Shown here piece by piece: positions 40,957 to 51,621 of a stretch of DNA of 64,000 bases. Both the position numbers and the translations under genes were made by a program. Source of the stretch: Massilia rubra (GTDB lineage Bacteria > Pseudomonadota > Gammaproteobacteria > Burkholderiales > Burkholderiaceae_D); the NCBI RefSeq assembly GCF_011682065.1, contig NZ_VUYU01000025.1:1-64000 (forward strand), read 5' to 3'. Every line of letters starts with the position of its first letter. Position 1 is the stretch's first letter. The notes under the pieces are model-generated. The model saw only the letters and a list, made by a program, of their open reading frames with translations, was not told where the DNA came from and did no database searches.

Positions 40957-43854
40957 TTACAGGAACTTGTAGTTCAGACGTGCGTAGAACGTGCGACCGA
41001 GCGGGTTGGTGAACGAGGCGTCGTAACCGACCTGGAAGTTGGCGCCATTGCGCGACGATGGTGGATCTTCGTCGGCGATGTTTTTTACGCCAAATGTCAT
41101 GCTCAGGTTTTTCATCGGTTTCCAGCCCAAGGTGGCATCGAAGGTCGAGTAGTTGTCGACCTTGCGCAGCTCCGGGTAGGTCGCGGCGATCAGCGACGGA
41201 TCGGTGTAGTCCCAGTAACCTTTGGTGTAATTGTGGGTGAGCGAGCCGGTCCATTGACCAACGCCGTAGGTCAGGCCCAAGGTGTGGCGATAACGCGGGG
41301 TCGGGCCGAAATCCTTGAAGTTGCCCAGGTCGCTGACTTCCTTTTCGCCTTCATACTGATAGCCGTGCTTGGTATAGTAAGTCGAATCGTAGTTCGCACC
41401 CAGCGTGCCCATGTCACCGAACTTCTGGCGATAATTCAGGTTCAGATCGACACCAGCCGCATAGAACTTACCGGTGTTTACACGTGGCAGGGCAACGTAA
41501 GCAAGCGGGAAGTCCTTGTTGGCATTGGCTTTATAAGGCAAATCACTGCCGCCGACCGGCACTGGAGGCGGTGGCAAGTTGTTTAGCTCAGCCAACGCCT
41601 TGTCATCCTCATACTGCTTCTGGATTTTCGGGTCGTAGCGATAGAACTGGCCCAGATTGGCCACCGGATCGCCGAACACCGTGTTTTCGGACATGGCGTT
41701 GATCGATTTATCGATCTTGACGTTCCAGTAATCGAGCGAACCGCTGATGGTCGACGTTGGCTGGAATACGAGGCCCAGGGTGTACTGTTTCGATTTCTCA
41801 GGCTTGAGATCCGCGTTGCCGCTGTTCTGGGTAGTCAACTGAACAGAGCACTCGTCCTGCAAGGCGCCGACCTTGTTCACACTGGTTACTTCCACGCCGT
41901 TCGGGCAGCGCACCGGGTCGTTAAAGTTCGACGAGGTGTTGTTCAGCGCCTTCGGATTGAGGTTATCGACCAGGGTCGGTGCGCGGAAACCGCGCGCCAC
42001 CGAACCGCGCGCCATGATCATGGTGCTCGGGCGATAGGTGAAGCCGAGTTTCGGGCTCAGGTTGTCGAACTCGGTGCCGAAACCATTCTTGTACTTGTCG
42101 TAGCGCGCAGCAGCAGTCAGTTCCAGGTCCTTGACGACCGGAACCACGACTTCGGAGAACAGGCCGAACACTTTGCGGTCGCCAGTCACGCCCGGAATTT
42201 CGCCCGCGCCGCCAACCTCGTCACCTTTACGCAGCACTTCCGACGACACCTGGGTCAGCTCTTCCTTGCGGAACGAGGTGCCGACCGAGAAGCCAACCGC
42301 GCCGGCCGGCAGGTTGAAAATTTCTTTGGACATTTTGAAATCGAACTCTTTCGAGATCGAGCTACCGCCATTTTCAAAGCCGCTCAGCTGCGAACCGAGC
42401 AAGGCCGCCAGGCTGGCCGCATCTTGCGTACCGAACACGTTGATTTCGCCTTTGGCGAGCAAGGGATCGAGCTTGGCGTAGCTGAACTTGCCCGGACCGA
42501 ACTGGATCTCCACTTCGTTCTTGCCGTAAGTGAGGGCGGTCTCGTAATCCCAGCCCGCGATCATCCCCTTGGCGCCGACCACGACGCGGGTGTTCTCGGT
42601 CTTGGTCAGGTCATTACGGCCGCCACCGGCGACGGTACGCCAGGTGCCGCCGATTTCGCCGGTCGGCACCACATCCATGTCGGCGGCAAGTACGGTGTCG
42701 GCGGTTGTGACGGTACCGTTCGGCATTTTGTAGCCAGCCGGGAGTTTCAGACCCTTGGGCAGTTTGACGCTCGCCGGATAGAAGCGGCCCGTGGCCGGAT
42801 ACTTCATGGCCTTGGTGTACGGCGCCGGCGACGACGCCGCGATCATCTTGTCCTTGGTGTAGGCCGCTTCGGCGAACAGTTCCAGGCTGTCGCTGACCTT
42901 GAACACGCCGCGCGTGACCAGGTTGGTATGCTTGGCTTCGGGAACCAGGTCGATGTACTTGACGTAGTCGGTACCGCAGCCTTTTTCGCTGTTGACCACC
43001 AGGCTGAATTCGTCGTTCTTGCAACCGTTGTAGCGGAACGGATTCACGCCCACATATTCGTTGCCGAGCTTGTCGGTGAAGTTCAGGTTAGGCACGCCGT
43101 TACGCGGCGACGACTTGTTGATGCCCAGGTCGGGACGCACGGAGGTGGTCGAGAAGCTGCGGTCGGAGGCAAGCAGTTTTTCGTTTTCTTCGTGGTTGGC
43201 GCTGACCAGCACGTTGAAGCGGTCGGTCGCGATGTCGCCGAAGCCGGCCGTGATGTTAAAACTCTTGGTGTTGCCGCCGCCCTGGTCGACGTGGGTCTTG
43301 TAGGCGGACATTTCCACGCCCTTGTAATCCTTGCGCAGGATGAAGTTGATCACGCCGGCCACCGCATCGGCGCCGTACACGGCCGAGGCGCCGTCGCGCA
43401 GCACTTCGATGCGTTCGATGGCCGACAGCGGGATCGAATTCAAGTCGACCGGGTTGTTGCCGACCGCATAGTTGGCCACGCGGCGGCCGTTCAGCAGCAC
43501 CAGCGTGTAGCGGGCGCCCAGGGCGCGCAGGTTGGCGGTCGACGGCACGCCGGAGGCGCCGACGTTGTTGGCGGTGACGCCACCGCCGAAGTTACCGGGA
43601 ATCAGGTTAACGAGGTCTTGGGCGGAGGTGGCGCCGGTGCGCTCGATGTCTTCGCGGCGAAGAATGGTGACAGGCAGCGCGGTTTCAGCGGCAACGCGTT
43701 TGATCGACGAGCCGGTGATCTCGACGCGCTGCATCGAATTGTCCTGGGAAGCGGTCTGGGCGACGGCTGGCAATGCCGCAAGGCCGAGGCCGACTGCGAT
43801 ACCGCCCGAGAAGACCAAGCGCAGTGAACGCGATAAAACGGTTTCTGTCATCAT
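40957..43854 (-). CDS. TonB-dependent receptor (third, B-like)
   Basis: The 965-residue receptor has a signal peptide ending PAVAQ, then VEITGSSIKR. The plug shows LPVTILRREDIERTGATSAQDLVNLIPGNFGGG, ANLRALGARYTLVLLNGRR and VAGVINFILRKDYKG; the barrel ends YARLNYKFL. Its end (DPPSSRNGANFQVGYDASFTNPLGR) resembles B1/B2, but the plug lacks their insert and it has longer external loops, so it is a separate branch. Tandem ATGs are preceded by AAGGGA. Upstream is a 240-base leader from a candidate promoter at 44098-44126. Substrate unknown. Confidence 0.92.
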   Translation of the reverse strand: MMTETVLSRSLRLVFSGGIAVGLGLAALPAVAQTASQDNSMQRVEITGSSIKRVAAETALPVTILRREDIERTGATSAQDLVNLIPGNFGGGVTANNVGASGVPSTANLRALGARYTLVLLNGRRVANYAVGNNPVDLNSIPLSAIERIEVLRDGASAVYGADAVAGVINFILRKDYKGVEMSAYKTHVDQGGGNTKSFNITAGFGDIATDRFNVLVSANHEENEKLLASDRSFSTTSVRPDLGINKSSPRNGVPNLNFTDKLGNEYVGVNPFRYNGCKNDEFSLVVNSEKGCGTDYVKYIDLVPEAKHTNLVTRGVFKVSDSLELFAEAAYTKDKMIAASSPAPYTKAMKYPATGRFYPASVKLPKGLKLPAGYKMPNGTVTTADTVLAADMDVVPTGEIGGTWRTVAGGGRNDLTKTENTRVVVGAKGMIAGWDYETALTYGKNEVEIQFGPGKFSYAKLDPLLAKGEINVFGTQDAASLAALLGSQLSGFENGGSSISKEFDFKMSKEIFNLPAGAVGFSVGTSFRKEELTQVSSEVLRKGDEVGGAGEIPGVTGDRKVFGLFSEVVVPVVKDLELTAAARYDKYKNGFGTEFDNLSPKLGFTYRPSTMIMARGSVARGFRAPTLVDNLNPKALNNTSSNFNDPVRCPNGVEVTSVNKVGALQDECSVQLTTQNSGNADLKPEKSKQYTLGLVFQPTSTISGSLDYWNVKIDKSINAMSENTVFGDPVANLGQFYRYDPKIQKQYEDDKALAELNNLPPPPVPVGGSDLPYKANANKDFPLAYVALPRVNTGKFYAAGVDLNLNYRQKFGDMGTLGANYDSTYYTKHGYQYEGEKEVSDLGNFKDFGPTPRYRHTLGLTYGVGQWTGSLTHNYTKGYWDYTDPSLIAATYPELRKVDNYSTFDATLGWKPMKNLSMTFGVKNIADEDPPSSRNGANFQVGYDASFTNPLGRTFYARLNYKFL

Positions 43855-44462: not shown

Positions 44463-45524
44463 TCAGCCCTGCGCACCCTGGCGGCGCTGGCGCACCGCCT
44501 CGGCCAGGCCTTCGAGCACGGCCACGCTGCTGTCCCAATCGATGCAGCCATCGGTGATCGACTGGCCGTACACCAGTTCCTTGCCCAGCACCAGGTCCTG
44601 ACGCCCGGCCACCAGGTGCGACTCCACCATCACGCCGACGATACGGCCATCGCCCCCGGCCACCTGGGCCGCGATATCGGCGCACACCGGCACCTGGTTT
44701 TCCGGCTTCTTGGAACTGTTGGCGTGCGAGGCGTCGATCATCAGGCGCGCGGCCAGGCCTTGCGCGGCGATCTGCTGGCAAGCCAGTTCCACGCTGGCGG
44801 CGTCGTAGTTCGGCGTCTTGCCGCCGCGCAGGATGATGTGGCAATCCTCGTTGCCGTTGGTCGACACGATTGCCGAATGGCCGCCCTTGGTCACCGACAA
44901 GAAGTGGTGCGGCTGCGAAGCGGCCTTGATCGCTTCCACCGCGATCTTGATATTGCCGTCGGTCCCGTTCTTGAAACCCACCGGACACGACAAGCCGGAC
45001 GCCAGTTCGCGGTGCACCTGCGACTCGGTGGTGCGGGCGCCGATCGCGCCCCAGCTGATCAGGTCGGCGATGTACTGCGGACTGATCACGTCGAGGTATT
45101 CGGTGCCGGCCGGCAAGCCGAGTTCGTTGATGTCGCGCAGCAGCTCGCGCGCCATGCGCAGCCCGTCATTGATGCGGAAACTGTTATCCATGTACGGATC
45201 GTTGATCAAGCCCTTCCAGCCGACCGTGGTGCGCGGCTTTTCGAAGTACACGCGCATGACGATTTCCAGCTCGCCCTTGAAGCGGTCGCGCTCGCCGGCC
45301 AGGCGGCGCGCGTATTCCATCGCGGCCTTGGTATCGTGGATCGAGCATGGCCCGATCACCACCATCAAGCGGTCGTCCTGGCCGTGCAGGATGCGGTGCA
45401 GCGCCACGCGCGAACCGGCCGCGGTCTGCTCGGCGCGCTCGCCGCAGGCAAACTCGCGGATCAGATGGGAAGGCGGCGTCAGTTCCTTCATTTCGCGGAT
45501 GCGTAGATCGTCGGTGCGTGGCAT
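44463..45524 (-). CDS. aroG: 3-deoxy-7-phosphoheptulonate (DAHP) synthase, class I
   Basis: The 353-residue enzyme condenses phosphoenolpyruvate and erythrose 4-phosphate, the first step of the shikimate pathway. Class I (AroFGH) motifs are clear: VVIGPCSIHDTKAAMEYA, MRVYFEKPRTTVGWKGLINDP, WGAIGARTTESQVHRELASGLSCPVGFKNGTDG and the metal-binding DASHANSSK. The start at 45524 has GGAG seven bases upstream; an in-frame ATG at 45551 lacks one. A leader with a Phe/Tyr-rich peptide and an intrinsic terminator precedes it, so expression is probably controlled by aromatic amino acid supply. Which isozyme this is (Phe-, Tyr- or Trp-sensitive) cannot be fixed by eye; the gene symbol is for the family. 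Confidence 0.95.
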   Translation of the reverse strand: MPRTDDLRIREMKELTPPSHLIREFACGERAEQTAAGSRVALHRILHGQDDRLMVVIGPCSIHDTKAAMEYARRLAGERDRFKGELEIVMRVYFEKPRTTVGWKGLINDPYMDNSFRINDGLRMARELLRDINELGLPAGTEYLDVISPQYIADLISWGAIGARTTESQVHRELASGLSCPVGFKNGTDGNIKIAVEAIKAASQPHHFLSVTKGGHSAIVSTNGNEDCHIILRGGKTPNYDAASVELACQQIAAQGLAARLMIDASHANSSKKPENQVPVCADIAAQVAGGDGRIVGVMVESHLVAGRQDLVLGKELVYGQSITDGCIDWDSSVAVLEGLAEAVRQRRQGAQG

Positions 45525-45562
45525 GGTGTTCTCCGTGGCTGGGTCATTCAAATGGTCGGGCT

Positions 45563-45590
45563 AAAAAAAAACCGCCATGGCTGGCGGTTT
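45563..45590 (-). terminator. Attenuator terminator in the aroG leader
   Basis: On the minus strand AACCGCCA / TGGCGGTT forms a perfect 8-bp stem around GCCA and is followed by nine T residues. It lies 45 bases past the leader-peptide stop and 38 bases before the aroG ATG. The 5' arm ACCGCC is complementary to GGCGGT within the last codons of the leader peptide. Confidence 0.88.
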
Positions 45591-45634
45591 ATCTGGATAT
45601 TGCAAGATCTCGTTGTTGCTACGTGAACCTGCCG

Positions 45635-45703
45635 CTACTCCACCGCCTTTGGGTTGGAATTGCTAAAGTAAAAGTAGCAGGTAAAGAAAACGACGTTGTG
45701 CAT
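45635..45703 (-). CDS. Phe/Tyr leader peptide of the aroG attenuator
   Basis: A 22-codon frame begins at the ATG 45703 (CGGAT site eight bases upstream) and ends with TAG at 45635. The middle of the peptide reads VVFFTCYFYF: four Phe and two Tyr codons within eight positions. The last codons (Lys-Ala-Val) contain GGCGGT, 15 bases after the final Phe codon. This spacing matches classical ribosome-mediated attenuators such as pheL: a ribosome stalled at the Phe/Tyr codons leaves GGCGGT free to pair with the terminator arm, while one at the stop codon covers it. It is far too short for a functional protein and its aromatic codon run is unlikely by chance. Confidence 0.87.
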   Translation of the reverse strand: MHNVVFFTCYFYFSNSNPKAVE

Positions 45704-45728
45704 GGCAAGATCCGAAAGTGGTGCAAGG

Positions 45729-45758
45729 ACTATAACAACAATTCCTGCAATTTGGCAA
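45729..45758 (-). promoter_or_regulatory. Sigma-70 promoter for the aroG leader
   Basis: On the minus strand TTGCCA (45753-45758) and TATAGT (45729-45734) are separated by 18 bases (or TTATAG with 17). A start near 45722 gives a leader RNA of about 200 nucleotides ending at aroG, with the leader peptide ATG about 20 bases in. Confidence 0.7.
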
Positions 45759-45921: not shown

Positions 45922-46010
45922 ATGCGATCGACTTTTCCAGTCAGATAGATTGACTTGGATCATGGCTTTTCAAAGCGGACGGGGCAGTCATACGCTTTGT
46001 GGAGCCTGTC

Positions 46011-48860
46011 ATGAAACACACCATCTTGTCCCGTTCGCTGCGGGGCCTGTTCGCCGGCGGTGGCGCCGCCGGCTTGGCCCTGCTCGCGTGCCCCGCGCGC
46101 GCGCAAGCACCGGCGCCGCCGGCCCCCATCCCGCGCGTCGAAATCACCGGCACCCTGATCCCGCGCGCGACGCGCGAAACGGCGGCCGCCGTCATCACCC
46201 TCAACCGCAACGATATCGAGCGTTCCGGCAAGACCACCGTGGCCGAGCTGCTGCAAACACTGGCGGTCGACAACCAGGGCTCGGTGCCGTCGAGCTTCGG
46301 CGGCGGCTTCGCCAGCGGCGCCTCCGGCATCTCGCTGCGCGGCCTGGGCGCGGCCTCCACCCTGGTGTTGCTCAACGGGCGCCGGGTGGCCCCCTACGGC
46401 CTGGCCGACGATGGCCAGAAAGTCTTTTCCGACCTGAACATCATCCCCACCGACGCCGTCGAGCGGGTCGAAGTGCTCAAGGACGGCGCCTCGGCCATCT
46501 ACGGCTCGGACGCGATCGCCGGCGTGGTCAACGTGATCCTGCGGCGCGACTTTCGCGGCACCACCGTGCGCGCCAGCTTCGGCCAGTCGCGCGAGCACGA
46601 CGGCAACGACGGCGTCGCCTCGCTCACCTGGGGCAAGGGCGACCTGCAGGCCGACCGCTACAACCTGCTGGCCAGCCTCGAGTACGGACGGCGCGCCGAG
46701 ATCTGGAACCGCGACCGCGCCGAGCGCGCGTACATCGGGCGCGGCGACCTGCGCCCCTGGGGCTTCAGCGCCCAGGAGTCGCTCGGCGGCACCGGCGCCA
46801 TCACCGCCAACAACGCCGGGGGCAGCGCCATCAACGGCAATGTGCGCAACCCCGATACGCTCGACTACGTCAACCGCGGCAACCTGGCCGGGGCGGGTTT
46901 CACCCGCACCTTTCCGGGCGCGGCCTGCGCCAACTTCACGCGCCACCCGCAGGGCGACCCGGGCGGCGGCTGCCTGGTCGACGCGGCGCAGTTGTACAAC
47001 CAGATCCAGCCGCGCCAGGAGCGGGTCAATTTCTTCGGGCGCGCCACCTTCCAGGCCACGCCCGAGGTGCAAACCTACGCCGAACTGAACCTGTATCGCA
47101 GCAAATCGACCTCGTCCTCGACGCCGTCGGCGCTCAGCGGCGCGGTCGGCTATCCGGGCGGCCCGGTCAACAGCGCCAACGTCATGCTGGGCGCGACCCA
47201 TCCCGACAATCCCTACTTCGGCACGCCGGCGCGGCTGCGTTACACAGCCGCCGATGTGGGCCCGCGCGTGAGCGAGATCGATTCCGACTTCGTGCGCTTG
47301 CTGGCCGGCGTCAAGGGCAGCGTGGGGCCGTGGGAGCTCGACACCGCCCTGCTGTTCTCGCAAAACCAGGTCAGCCAGGAACGCAGCCGCTACCTGCAGC
47401 GCGACGTCATGTACGCGCTGCTCAATCCGAGTCCGGCCAATGTGGCGGCGGCCAGCGCCAACCCCGCCTATGCCGCGCTGCCGCCCGGCAGCGTGTGGCG
47501 CATCGCCGAAAACGCCGGCGTCAATTCGCCGGCCCTGTACGCGGCGCTGGCGCCCTCACTGACCAACGACGCCAAGAGCCGCATCGCCCAGCTCGACCTG
47601 CTCGCCTCGCGCGAACTGGCCCAACTGCCGGGCGGGCCGCTCGGCATCGCGCTCGGCGGCGAATTCCGGCGCGAAACGGCCGAACTGGAACCGACTCCCG
47701 GCACCGAACGCGGCAACATCATCGGCCTCGGCTACTCGGCCTACAAGGGCGGCCGCAACGTGGCCGCACTCTACGGCGAAGTGCTCGCGCCAGTGCACCC
47801 GACCGTCGAACTGTCGGCCGCGCTGCGGGCCGACCACTACACCGACGCCGGCGACGCCTACAATCCCAAGTTCGGCGTCAAATGGACCCCGGTACGCACC
47901 TTCGCCTTGCGCGGCACGTATGCGCGCGGCTTCCGGGCCCCGAGCACCGCCGAAAACGGCGTCGGCGGCCTGGCCGCGTTTTCCACCGCGGTCGACCCGC
48001 TGCGCTGCAGCCTGGGGGTTGAGATCGCCTGCAACCCGGCCGCGATCGCCATCATCACCTCGCCCAACCCGGCGCTGTCGCCCGAAAAATCGCGCAGCGT
48101 CAACGTCGGCATGGTGTGGGACCCGTACAAGCGCACCAATATCGCGCTCGACCTGTGGGAAATCAAGCGCAAGAACGAGATCAACCAGGAGCAGAGCGAC
48201 GCCGCCATCCAGGCCGGGCGCATCGCGCGCGATCCCAGCGGCGCCACCCGTCCCGGCGACCCCGGTCCGATCACGGCGGTGCTGGCCAGCTACGTCAATT
48301 CGGCGCGCACCGAGGTGCGCGGGGCCGACCTGGAATTGAACCAGCGCTTCGACTTCGGACCCGGCACCGGCGAAGTGACCATGAATACCAAGTGGACCCA
48401 CCTGTTCAAGTGGCTGCGCACCGAGCAGGACGGCAGCGCGCGCGACTTCGCCGGCACCCACGGCAACTGCGATGTCACCAACTGCGTCGGCACGCCCGAG
48501 GACCGGGTCAACTTCGGCCTGTCGTGGGAGCGCGCGGCCTGGCGCGTGGCGGCCAACGTGAATTACCGGGGCGACCTCAAGAACACGCTGTTCAAGAACG
48601 ACCCGGCCGGTTGCGCCAGCCATCTCGCCAATGGCGATGCGGCCCCGGCCGGCTGCGAACTGCCATCCTTCACCACGGTCGACCTGACGTTCCGCTGGAA
48701 GCCGAGCACGCGGGTGGAAGTGTTCGGGTCGGCGCAAAACATTTTCGACAAGATCGCCCCGCTCGACCCGCTGACCTACGGCGCGACCGCCTATAACCCG
48801 CTCGACTACGCCGGCGCCGTCGGGCGTTTCTTCACGGCCGGCGTGCGTTACACCTTCTAG
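46011..48860 (+). CDS. TonB-dependent receptor (A2, paralogue of A1)
   Basis: The 949-residue receptor starts at the ATG 46011, seven bases after GGAG; an in-frame GTG lies four codons upstream. The signal peptide ends near ARAQA, followed by VEITGTLIPR. The plug (AVITLNRNDIERSGKTTVAELLQTLAVD, ISLRGLGAASTLVLLNGRR, IAGVVNVILRRD) and the barrel end (FDKIAPLDPLTYGATAYNPLD...RYTF) parallel A1 closely, including external Cys pairs (GNCDVTNC; CASH...GCEL). Two Fnr-like sites lie upstream. The next receptor gene starts 94 bases downstream on the same strand. Confidence 0.93.
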   Translation: MKHTILSRSLRGLFAGGGAAGLALLACPARAQAPAPPAPIPRVEITGTLIPRATRETAAAVITLNRNDIERSGKTTVAELLQTLAVDNQGSVPSSFGGGFASGASGISLRGLGAASTLVLLNGRRVAPYGLADDGQKVFSDLNIIPTDAVERVEVLKDGASAIYGSDAIAGVVNVILRRDFRGTTVRASFGQSREHDGNDGVASLTWGKGDLQADRYNLLASLEYGRRAEIWNRDRAERAYIGRGDLRPWGFSAQESLGGTGAITANNAGGSAINGNVRNPDTLDYVNRGNLAGAGFTRTFPGAACANFTRHPQGDPGGGCLVDAAQLYNQIQPRQERVNFFGRATFQATPEVQTYAELNLYRSKSTSSSTPSALSGAVGYPGGPVNSANVMLGATHPDNPYFGTPARLRYTAADVGPRVSEIDSDFVRLLAGVKGSVGPWELDTALLFSQNQVSQERSRYLQRDVMYALLNPSPANVAAASANPAYAALPPGSVWRIAENAGVNSPALYAALAPSLTNDAKSRIAQLDLLASRELAQLPGGPLGIALGGEFRRETAELEPTPGTERGNIIGLGYSAYKGGRNVAALYGEVLAPVHPTVELSAALRADHYTDAGDAYNPKFGVKWTPVRTFALRGTYARGFRAPSTAENGVGGLAAFSTAVDPLRCSLGVEIACNPAAIAIITSPNPALSPEKSRSVNVGMVWDPYKRTNIALDLWEIKRKNEINQEQSDAAIQAGRIARDPSGATRPGDPGPITAVLASYVNSARTEVRGADLELNQRFDFGPGTGEVTMNTKWTHLFKWLRTEQDGSARDFAGTHGNCDVTNCVGTPEDRVNFGLSWERAAWRVAANVNYRGDLKNTLFKNDPAGCASHLANGDAAPAGCELPSFTTVDLTFRWKPSTRVEVFGSAQNIFDKIAPLDPLTYGATAYNPLDYAGAVGRFFTAGVRYTF

Positions 48861-48954
48861 CGACATCCGGGGGCATCGGAAAACCGTGGCGCAGTCAGTT
48901 CTTCGAGGTCCCCATCCCTTCACCAACCGTTTAACCACCCCACCGGAGCAGTCC

Positions 48955-51621
48955 ATGATTGAAAAAGCCTTATCCGCCGCCATTCGCCGCCTGTGCGCCG
49001 GCGGCGCCCTCCTCGGCGCCGGCGTGCTGGCCTTGCCGGCCCAGGCCCAGTCCCCCGCCGAGGGCGCGCAGCCGATGCAAAAAGTCGAAATCGTCGGCAC
49101 CTCGATCCGCCAGCGCCTGGCCAGCCAGACCGCGCTGCCGATCAGCACCATCCGCGCCGAAGACTTCGCCAAGCAGGGCCTCTCGACCGTGCAGGAAGTG
49201 CTGGCCACCATTCCCATGAACCAGACCTCGGTCGGTTCGAGCCAGTCGGTCGGTTCCGGCACGGGCGGACGCGCCGAGGCCAACCTGCGCGGCCTCGGCA
49301 GCGACAAGACCCTGGTGCTGCTCAACGGCCGGCGCCTGGCCAACCACCCCTTCTTCGCCGACACGGTCGACCTGAACATCATTCCCGTGGCCGCGCTCGA
49401 ACGGGTCGAGGTGCTGCGCGACGGCGCCTCGGCCATCTACGGCAGCGACGCCATCGGCGGCGTGATCAACTTCGTCACCAAGCGCTCCTACCGGGGCATG
49501 GAAGTGAGCGTGGAAGCACACGAACCGGCCGGCTCGGGCGGCGGCGACGAGCAGCGCATCAACTTCACCGGCGGCTGGGGCGACCTGGGCACCGACGGCT
49601 ACAACCTGCTCGGCATTGTCGACTTTCACCGCCAGTCCACCCTCATGGCCACCGACCGCGACTTCGCGCGCACCGGCGTGCGCCCCGAGCGTGGCCTGTA
49701 CCAGACCAGCGGCACCACCTTTCCCGCCAACTTCTTTTCCGACGAAGGCATTGCCGGCAATCCCAGCTACGCCAGCGGTTGCCGGCCGCCCTACTCCATT
49801 CCCAACCAGAGCGGCGCGCCGAACTGCCGCTTCGACTCGACCCAGTTCGTCGACCTGATTCCGCTGACCAAGCAGGAAACCTTCCTCGGCCGCTTCAGCA
49901 AAAAAATCGGCGCCGAGCACACGGCCACCCTCGAATACCTGCACAGCCGCAGCACCAACGAAGCGCACGTGGCGCCGCCGCCGCTGGCCGGCATCGGCCT
50001 GACCATGAGCAATACCAGCCCCTTCTACCCCGGCGCCGGCATCACCCCCGCCGTGGCCGGCCTGACCGGCGAACCGCTCGACGTCAGCTGGCGCCCGCTG
50101 GTAACGGGCAAGCGCGAAGGGCTCGACGTCAGCCTGACCGACCGCCTGCTGGCCGGCATGGAGGGCACGGCCGGCGGCTGGGACTACAACCTTGGCTTGT
50201 CGTATGCGGTGGGGCGGGCGCGCAGCGCGTTCACCAACGGCTACGTGGTCGATGCGCGCATCATCGAAGGGGTCGGCAATGGCTTGCTCAATCCCTTCGG
50301 CGAACAAACGCCCGCCGGCAACGACTACCTGCGCCAGTCGCTGCTACAAGGCGAATACCTGCGCGCCAAGATCAAGAGCGGCGCCATCGACTTCAAGGCC
50401 AGCCGCGAACTGATGACCTTGCCCGCCGGCGCGCTCGGCTTCGCGCTCGGCGGCGAATTCCGGCGCGACGAAGCCGATTACCGCGTCAACCGCGAACTGG
50501 CCAGCCAGGCCTCCAGTTCCGGCTACGCCGACGCCCAGGACCAGAGCGGCAGCCGCAATATCGGCGCTGTCTTCACCGAGCTCAACATCCCGGTCATCAA
50601 GGACCTGGAAGTGAACCTGGCCGCGCGCTACGACGACTATACCGATTTCGGTCACAGCTTCAATCCCAAGGTGGCGCTGCGCTGGCAACCGAGCAAGCAG
50701 GTGCTGCTGCGCGGCTCGTTCAACAAGGGCTTCCGCGCGCCCACCCTGTACGACCTGCACGGACCGCAGACGACCACCAATACCGGCAATCCCTGGAACG
50801 ATCCGGTGCTGTGCCCGGGCGGTAAGGCGGTGCCGGGGGCCAACCCGAATATTTCCTGCGACCAGCAGCAGAACATCCGCGGCGGCGGCAATCCCGAGGT
50901 CAAGCCTGAACGCTCGCGCACCTACAGCGCCGGGGTCGTGCTCGAACCGACCACCAACCTGACGCTCACGGCCGACTACTGGGATATCCGGCTCAAGGAC
51001 CAGATCAGCGCATTGGCGGAAGAATCGATCTTCGGCGAATACCAGAAATACCAGAACCTGTATTTCTACAATGCCGCCCGCACCCGGCTCGATTACGTGC
51101 TGGCGATCACCCAGAACCTGGGCGAGGTCAAGACGCGCGGCGTCGACCTGGGCATGTTGTGGCGCTTGCAGCGCGACCAGCTGGGTAACTTTACGCTCGG
51201 CGTGGAAGGCACCTATGTCGACCGCTACGACTACCAGAACGAGCGCAACGGGCCGTTCACGGTCAACGCGGGCCGCTTTGCGGACGCCAGCCCGGTGTTT
51301 CGGTGGCGCCACACCGCCACCCTGGGATGGACCCGGGGACCGGTGAACATGACCTTGTCCAACCGCTACCTGTCCGGCTATGACGACCAGCCCGACGCCG
51401 AGGGCGTGGTGCCCGGGCGCGTGGGACATTACTCGACCTGGGCGCTGGCGGGCACGTACACGGCCAACCAGAAGGTCAGCGTGACGGCCGGAGTGAAGAA
51501 CCTGCTGGACGACGACCCGCCTTTCACGGTTCAGAGCACAACGTTCCAGCAGGGCTACGATCCGCGCTACACGGACCCGCTCGGGCGTACGTTTTACGTG
51601 AGGGCGACCTACAAGTTCTGA
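48955..51621 (+). CDS. TonB-dependent receptor (B2, paralogue of B1)
   Basis: The 888-residue receptor begins at ATG 48955 with CCGGAG eight bases before. The signal peptide ends PAQAQ, then VEIVGTSIRQR. The plug reads ISTIRAEDFAKQGLSTVQEVLATIPMNQ, ANLRGLGSDKTLVLLNGRRLANH and GGVINFVTKRSYRG, and the barrel ends YVRATYKF; the whole aligns with B1 block by block. No terminator is seen between A2 and B2, so they may be one transcript, unlike A1 and B1. Confidence 0.92.
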   Translation: MIEKALSAAIRRLCAGGALLGAGVLALPAQAQSPAEGAQPMQKVEIVGTSIRQRLASQTALPISTIRAEDFAKQGLSTVQEVLATIPMNQTSVGSSQSVGSGTGGRAEANLRGLGSDKTLVLLNGRRLANHPFFADTVDLNIIPVAALERVEVLRDGASAIYGSDAIGGVINFVTKRSYRGMEVSVEAHEPAGSGGGDEQRINFTGGWGDLGTDGYNLLGIVDFHRQSTLMATDRDFARTGVRPERGLYQTSGTTFPANFFSDEGIAGNPSYASGCRPPYSIPNQSGAPNCRFDSTQFVDLIPLTKQETFLGRFSKKIGAEHTATLEYLHSRSTNEAHVAPPPLAGIGLTMSNTSPFYPGAGITPAVAGLTGEPLDVSWRPLVTGKREGLDVSLTDRLLAGMEGTAGGWDYNLGLSYAVGRARSAFTNGYVVDARIIEGVGNGLLNPFGEQTPAGNDYLRQSLLQGEYLRAKIKSGAIDFKASRELMTLPAGALGFALGGEFRRDEADYRVNRELASQASSSGYADAQDQSGSRNIGAVFTELNIPVIKDLEVNLAARYDDYTDFGHSFNPKVALRWQPSKQVLLRGSFNKGFRAPTLYDLHGPQTTTNTGNPWNDPVLCPGGKAVPGANPNISCDQQQNIRGGGNPEVKPERSRTYSAGVVLEPTTNLTLTADYWDIRLKDQISALAEESIFGEYQKYQNLYFYNAARTRLDYVLAITQNLGEVKTRGVDLGMLWRLQRDQLGNFTLGVEGTYVDRYDYQNERNGPFTVNAGRFADASPVFRWRHTATLGWTRGPVNMTLSNRYLSGYDDQPDAEGVVPGRVGHYSTWALAGTYTANQKVSVTAGVKNLLDDDPPFTVQSTTFQQGYDPRYTDPLGRTFYVRATYKF

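Follow-up and report, generated by a model that had tools for sequence, protein, structure and literature searches.

The aroG gene of Massilia rubra is very probably controlled by a ribosome-mediated transcription attenuator, a reading drawn from sequence comparison and predicted RNA folds. The window, a stretch of 64,000 nucleotides, carries aroG on the minus strand (44463 to 45524, with its ATG at 45524). The gene encodes a DAHP synthase of 353 aa that matches NCBIfam AroG NF006723 with 582.5 bits (cut-off, 568), and the nearest named relative among the matches listed is Massilia atriviolacea, at 97% in AroG. DAHP synthase supplies all three aromatic amino acids, as stated in the accessible part of PMC5343134 and as is known of the pathway, so a leader of mixed aromatic codons makes sense at this step. 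Features of the attenuator class are found upstream of the gene: a short ORF rich in codons for the end products of the pathway, an intrinsic terminator between that ORF and the structural gene and, by prediction, an antiterminator (segments 2 and 3) that cannot coexist with the terminator and is released when a ribosome occupies the control codons.

The preliminary description had placed a sigma-70-type promoter and a 22-codon leader with four Phe and two Tyr codons before aroG, and both were found on the minus strand. The promoter, TTGCCA-18-TATAGT (45729 to 45758), gave 10 of 12 matches in a promoter scan; its -35 element, TTGCCA, is at 45758-45753 and its -10 element, TATAGT, is at 45734-45729, with an 18-base spacer that has TG ahead of the -10. 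The leader ORF, MHNVVFFTCYFYFSNSNPKAVE, was identified by ORF translation (45635 to 45703, from ATG at 45703 to TAG) and is kept in relatives; its aromatic codon run, FFTCYFYF, spans 45665 to 45688. Segment 1, ACCTGC (45677 to 45682), lies within this run and pairs with GCAGGT (45627 to 45632), directly 3' of the stop codon. Segment 2, GGCGGT (45642 to 45647), occupies the final leader codons and matches segment 3, ACCGCC (45583 to 45588), in the 5' arm of the terminator (45582-45590). Segment 4, TGGCGGTTT (45569 to 45577), is the 3' arm; stem prediction and covariation support both segments 3 and 4. The whole terminator, detected by a terminator scan, reads AAACCGCCA-GCCA-TGGCGGTTT (45590-45569), and nine T residues (45563 to 45571) come after the stem. 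Two earlier measurements needed correction: the nine T residues stand, and the stem has 9 bp instead of 8 (ACCGCCA:TGGCGGT, 7 bp, followed in the count by two A-U pairs); GGCGGT in the last leader codons is indeed complementary to ACCGCC, and it begins 17 bases, not 15, after the last Phe codon. Three large ORFs flank aroG (40957-43854 on the minus strand, 45999-48860 and 48886-51621 on the plus strand) and by eye resemble TonB-dependent receptors.

Scanning 701 bases of the window yielded 1 promoter-like site, compared with 0.3 in shuffles, and 2 terminator-like sites, compared with 0.9 in shuffles, so these scans by themselves prove little. The leader RNA of the window folds with a z score of -3.61, and the complementarity of segments 2 and 3, taken by itself, has a P value of 0.025 against shuffles. 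The leader peptide belongs to no family in Pfam or NCBIfam at an E value of 1, and no Rfam element was found in the window at gathering score.

Under the proposed mechanism, transcription would begin near 45722, about 20 bases ahead of the leader ORF, and a ribosome would trail the polymerase. When charged Phe- and Tyr-tRNAs are plentiful, the ribosome would reach the stop codon and cover or pass segment 2, and the 3:4 terminator would form before aroG. A shortage of these charged tRNAs would stall the ribosome on the aromatic codons, where it would occupy segment 1 and leave segment 2 free; the free GGCGGT would then capture ACCGCC of segment 3 before segment 4 is made, and aroG would be transcribed. 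If no ribosome is present, segment 2 would be folded away and the terminator would form. We infer this transcription start, this timing, and a response to tRNA charging in the cell, with aroG answering to Phe- and Tyr-tRNA charging and, where Trp codons occur, to Trp-tRNA charging as well.

A set of 238 aroG upstream regions was compared: 80 from named relatives, 29 and 60 from a family sample of 145 genomes, 28 and 40 from an order sample of 160 genomes, and the window, with some genomes repeated. The 80 named regions were the best of 590 matches to the window's AroG, and the sets of 29 and 28 were likewise best matches to it; the sets of 60 and 40 were hand-picked, with one to four per genus or family. 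Regions were scored by a rule calling for an ORF of 10 to 45 codons in which a stretch of eight residues contains four or more F, Y, or W and a terminator starting at most 130 bases 3' of the ORF. Of the 238 regions, 187 satisfied the rule, compared with 1 of 714 dinucleotide shuffles, which bears out the expectation that relatives keep both the short ORF and its aromatic codons. By set, the matches were 78/80, 28/29, 57/60, 14/28, and 9/40, plus the window; the best 80 named relatives and the family sample together gave 163 of 169. Beyond the window's family, 21 of 65 regions from the order satisfied the rule, across twelve families, and 44 of these 65 were without the attenuator. The attenuator is widespread but patchy in the order outside the window's family. 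Since the set repeats some genomes, the 187 matches comprise 166 distinct leader-terminator sequences. A promoter-like site stands 5' of the leader start in 109 of these 166 (a count without a shuffle control), with TTGCCA in 83 of the 109.

The rule missed 51 of the 238 regions. One of these loci (L103) has a leader whose aromatic codons fall short of the cut-off, and in Candidatus Burkholderia humilis (L083) the leader is present in a slipped frame of 48 codons; its T-rich run is out of frame relative to that of its relatives, possibly through symbiont decay. Another locus (L170) offers only 57 bases upstream. No leader was found at L032, L141, and L173, which are one and the same contig, and no aromatic ORF was found upstream at L182 (233 bases upstream only) or, among the regions of the class sample described below, at L281, L283, and L301. 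L083, L103, L170, and L182 all stay in the counts as misses. Upstream of its two DAHP synthase paralogs, the window's genome has no such leader. When that genome was searched with a covariance model of the leader built from 35 sequences, one full match (94.7 bits) was obtained and no second strong copy; the 29 weaker matches up to an E value of 10 reached at most 30.4 bits, and 3 of them cover the whole model, with the others covering its later part.

The RNA segments are conserved along with the ORF. Segment 2 contains GGCGG, the core of the terminator 3' arm, in 183 of 187 leaders, and it begins inside the ORF, 1 to 23 bases (most often 17) after the last aromatic codon. Leader by leader, the match of segments 2 and 3 against shuffles has a P value of at most 0.05 in 166 of 187 and no better than 0.05 in the other 21. 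Helix 2:3 hardly varies within groups, so its covariation there is uninformative. A swap test was applied to diverse sequences: each leader's own segment 3 fits segment 2 better than a swapped one, both in 40 chosen diverse sequences (19.43 versus 17.95; standard deviation, 0.27; 0/5000) and in the 24 most diverse (19.67 versus 17.91; 0/5000), with shared ancestry left in place by these swap controls as by the segment shuffles.

Helices 1:2 and 3:4 were analyzed in an alignment of the window's group (A1; 44 sequences). Helix 1:2, formed by ACCNGC in the aromatic codons and GCNGGT after the stop, is 87.9% paired in A1, and pairing drops to 53% or less when the helix is slid. It has 19 double-changed cells, compared with 9.9 in shuffles (0/500), 18 of them from one pair. 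The terminator helix 3:4 has 9 double-changed cells, compared with 1.1 (0/500), in 2 pairs. Counted by pairs with such changes, neither helix stands above shuffles (1:2, 2 compared with 1.6; terminator, 2 compared with 0.9). Both helices thus covary in the window's group, by few pairs. In the Burkholderia group, helix 1:2 is 97% paired, with a covariation score not above shuffles (148/500). A protector helix 1:2 over the control codons is therefore partly supported by the alignments. The tetramer CACG (45622-45625, minus strand), 3' of the leader stop and outside segments 1 to 4, is invariant in 44 of 44 A1 rows.

Predicted folds agree with the alternatives that had been proposed. In the absence of a ribosome, the terminator is part of the minimum-energy fold of 163 of the 166 distinct leaders, and in 160 segment 2 has a pairing partner other than segment 3. 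When a ribosome was placed on the last aromatic codon, with the polymerase just past segment 3, the 2:3 antiterminator was predicted in 165 of 166, whereas controls in which the intervening RNA was shuffled gave it in 494 of 1,660 under a laxer criterion. In 26 of the 166, the assumed footprint overlapped segment 2 and was limited to the segment edge; for one leader (L189), a fixed, uncapped footprint covered segment 2 and no 2:3 fold resulted. With the ribosome at the stop codon, the terminator is predicted in 165 of 166. Once segment 4 is available, the equilibrium favors the terminator in each of the six leaders that were folded, and the corresponding values for the window are -27.7 with the terminator and -22.3 for the 2:3 fold before segment 4. 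The choice would therefore be kinetic, made after segment 3 has emerged and before segment 4 has. The classic attenuator model likewise places the choice between the emergence of segments 3 and 4. At the sequence level, the parts of the element, their conservation, and the mutual exclusion of its helices are shown; conservation and folds together support the reading of the preliminary description that this is an attenuator.

Constraint on the leader as a coding sequence was gauged by pN/pS in three frames over nine codons of the aromatic run region. Burkholderia-type leaders (n = 21) gave 0.07 in frame, compared with 1.42 and 1.19 in the other frames, and a Herbaspirillum-like group (n = 37) gave 0.31, compared with 1.08 and 0.78. 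For the window's group (n = 44), the in-frame value was 0.60, compared with 1.05 and 0.55, and pN/pS does not discriminate there because one other frame gives 0.55. These comparisons demonstrate codon-level constraint on the leader in two of the three groups. Counted over the whole ORF, Phe is present in 166 of 166 distinct leaders, Tyr in 160, and Trp in 57; Trp lies within the densest eight residues, the aromatic run, in 48. As for codon usage, the leaders strongly prefer UUU for Phe: it makes up 647 of 876 Phe codons in the 187 leaders, compared with 90 of 519 in aroG itself, counted over codons 1 to 300 of the genes of 80 relatives.

These data bear on whether the terminated transcript is mainly an independent small RNA, with any effect on aroG incidental. 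The promoter and terminator do bracket an RNA of about 160 bases, and the invariant block after the stop in A1 lies outside the four segments. Such a function would not account for a position before aroG kept in 187 of 238 regions, for the codon constraint in two groups, or for the retained alternative pairing, and we consider it very unlikely. Action in trans by the terminated leader RNA or its peptide, in addition to attenuation, is suggested by analogy and seems unlikely, if somewhat easier to entertain: the trp leader of Sinorhizobium meliloti (peTrpL) is reported to act in trans in the accessible part of PMC7298713, and the CACG block could serve as a pairing seed. The data favor milder propositions over trans action, namely, that one leader gates the shared first step through charging of all three aromatic tRNAs and that aroG travels between orders with its switch.

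An arrest peptide, whose nascent chain would respond inside the ribosome to free Phe or Tyr in the way that TnaC responds to Trp, could present a similar picture of a conserved aromatic peptide followed by a terminator, and FYFS.S motifs are common to several leaders. However, the aromatic codons number from 4 to 11 per leader and vary in position, and His or Trp may stand for Tyr. Moreover, 13 of the 163 leaders with GGCGG have an altered reading frame over this word but retain it in the RNA, which favors a role for the RNA and argues against one for the C-terminal end of the peptide. Peptide arrest is therefore highly improbable. That a TyrR-type regulator chiefly controls aroG and the leader is a vestige is hardly credible, given that a vestige would not retain its frame and pairings across families and that, of 13 genomes of the genus searched (the window's own among the 13), 5 have no match to the TyrR-type helix-turn-helix domain at an E value of 0.001, a weak test because the domain is not specific to TyrR. 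The window's genome does have one borderline match, at 26.6 bits (27.4 with frame neighbors; cut-off, 27). Three of the five genomes (G075, G011, and G052) retain the leader (L089, L088, and L096), so a TyrR-type regulator is not needed for its persistence.

Attenuation by tRNA charging has well-known precedents. The pheL attenuator of enterobacterial pheA (Rfam Phe_leader RF01859) likewise consists of a Phe-codon leader ORF, a terminator, and an alternative pairing; here, in contrast, the gene serves the first shikimate step rather than the Phe branch, Phe codons are accompanied by Tyr codons and often by Trp codons, and the window scores 19.7 bits against RF01859, far below its gathering score of 55. 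The trpL attenuator of the trp operon (Rfam Trp_leader RF00513) has the four-segment logic in common but senses Trp only and serves a different operon; the window scores 13.6 bits against it (gathering score, 41) and 17.2 bits against Leu_leader (gathering score, 50). Eight relative loci matched no Rfam leader family at gathering scores. Mixed-codon systems such as ilvGMEDA and thr likewise use a single leader to read two or more amino acids, but these belong to the branched-chain or Thr/Ile pathways, not the aromatic one.

In the accessible parts of the literature, pheA attenuation is named in PMC1183508 and PMC5343134, and attenuation has been proposed before aroF in E. coli and Shewanella (PMC2659441) and before aroA-tyrA in Vibrio (PMC1173090). 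The last two cases also concern sites before a DAHP synthase gene, but the isoenzyme or operon and the lineages are different, and those parts of the two accounts contain no leader like that of aroG. In Burkholderia cenocepacia, 82 short 5' untranslated regions arising from processing or attenuation are reported in the accessible part of PMC5688073; the word deoxyheptonate is absent from its main text. A description of the aroG leader was not found in the accessible open literature, specifically in those parts of PMC2965389, PMC6321483, PMC7377471, PMC5760752, PMC4603805, PMC1173090, PMC2659441, PMC5343134, PMC5688073, and PMC1183508, and PMC4833913 had no match to the terms searched; an earlier mention in subscription papers or supplementary tables is possible. 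Judged by its sequence, the aroG leader would work like the leader-peptide attenuators, most of whose testable features it shares, and what appears to be new is the gene concerned, the range, the mix of aromatic codons, and an apparent transfer. The 1:2 helix within the aromatic codons, the Trp codons of many relatives, the range across the order, and the apparent transfer are additions to the preliminary description. For Oxalobacteraceae, Burkholderiaceae, and several further families, the result predicts how the way into the shikimate pathway is controlled, by a circuit that would read two and in many species three amino acids at their shared step. Many short ORFs before aroG are thereby marked as regulatory, and the switch seems to have crossed between orders along with its gene.

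The range of the element in the class was assessed with the covariance model. In 370 class genomes, matches of at least 56 bits were found in six genomes besides the window's own, two from the order (both of family f48) and four from elsewhere in the class (f60 in three cases and f65 in one); all six matches, including that in G309, stand before DAHP synthase genes. The best 29 AroG relatives in a 184-genome class sample included 2 with the attenuator, both of family f60. An AroG tree of 75 rows, 33 of which had a leader known beforehand, was rooted at its midpoint. It separates 48 rows (34 with the leader and 14 without) from 27 class rows without the leader (support, 100/97). The f60 and f65 rows share a fork (100/94) nested inside the 48-row part and form a seven-row fork (100/91) with three f4 rows, one of which has no leader; their link to the two leader-bearing f4 rows is weak (83/12). 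The simplest reading of the tree would be that aroG passed to two families beyond the order along with its attenuator and that several members of the order lost the attenuator. The aroG genes at L249, L250, L252, and L253 (f60 and f65), which have the attenuator, are outside the order and group within Burkholderiales genes.

Three class-wide matches below 40 bits were inspected (L255, L258, and L266). L255 and L266 were rejected as aroG leaders, as they do not stand before a DAHP synthase. L258 (genome G462; about 1450-1750 in the locus) has another DAHP synthase gene, preceded by a CFFYFSFF leader and a terminator whose stem differs in sequence (GCTGGG with CCCAGC), a single case that is perhaps independent or very diverged.
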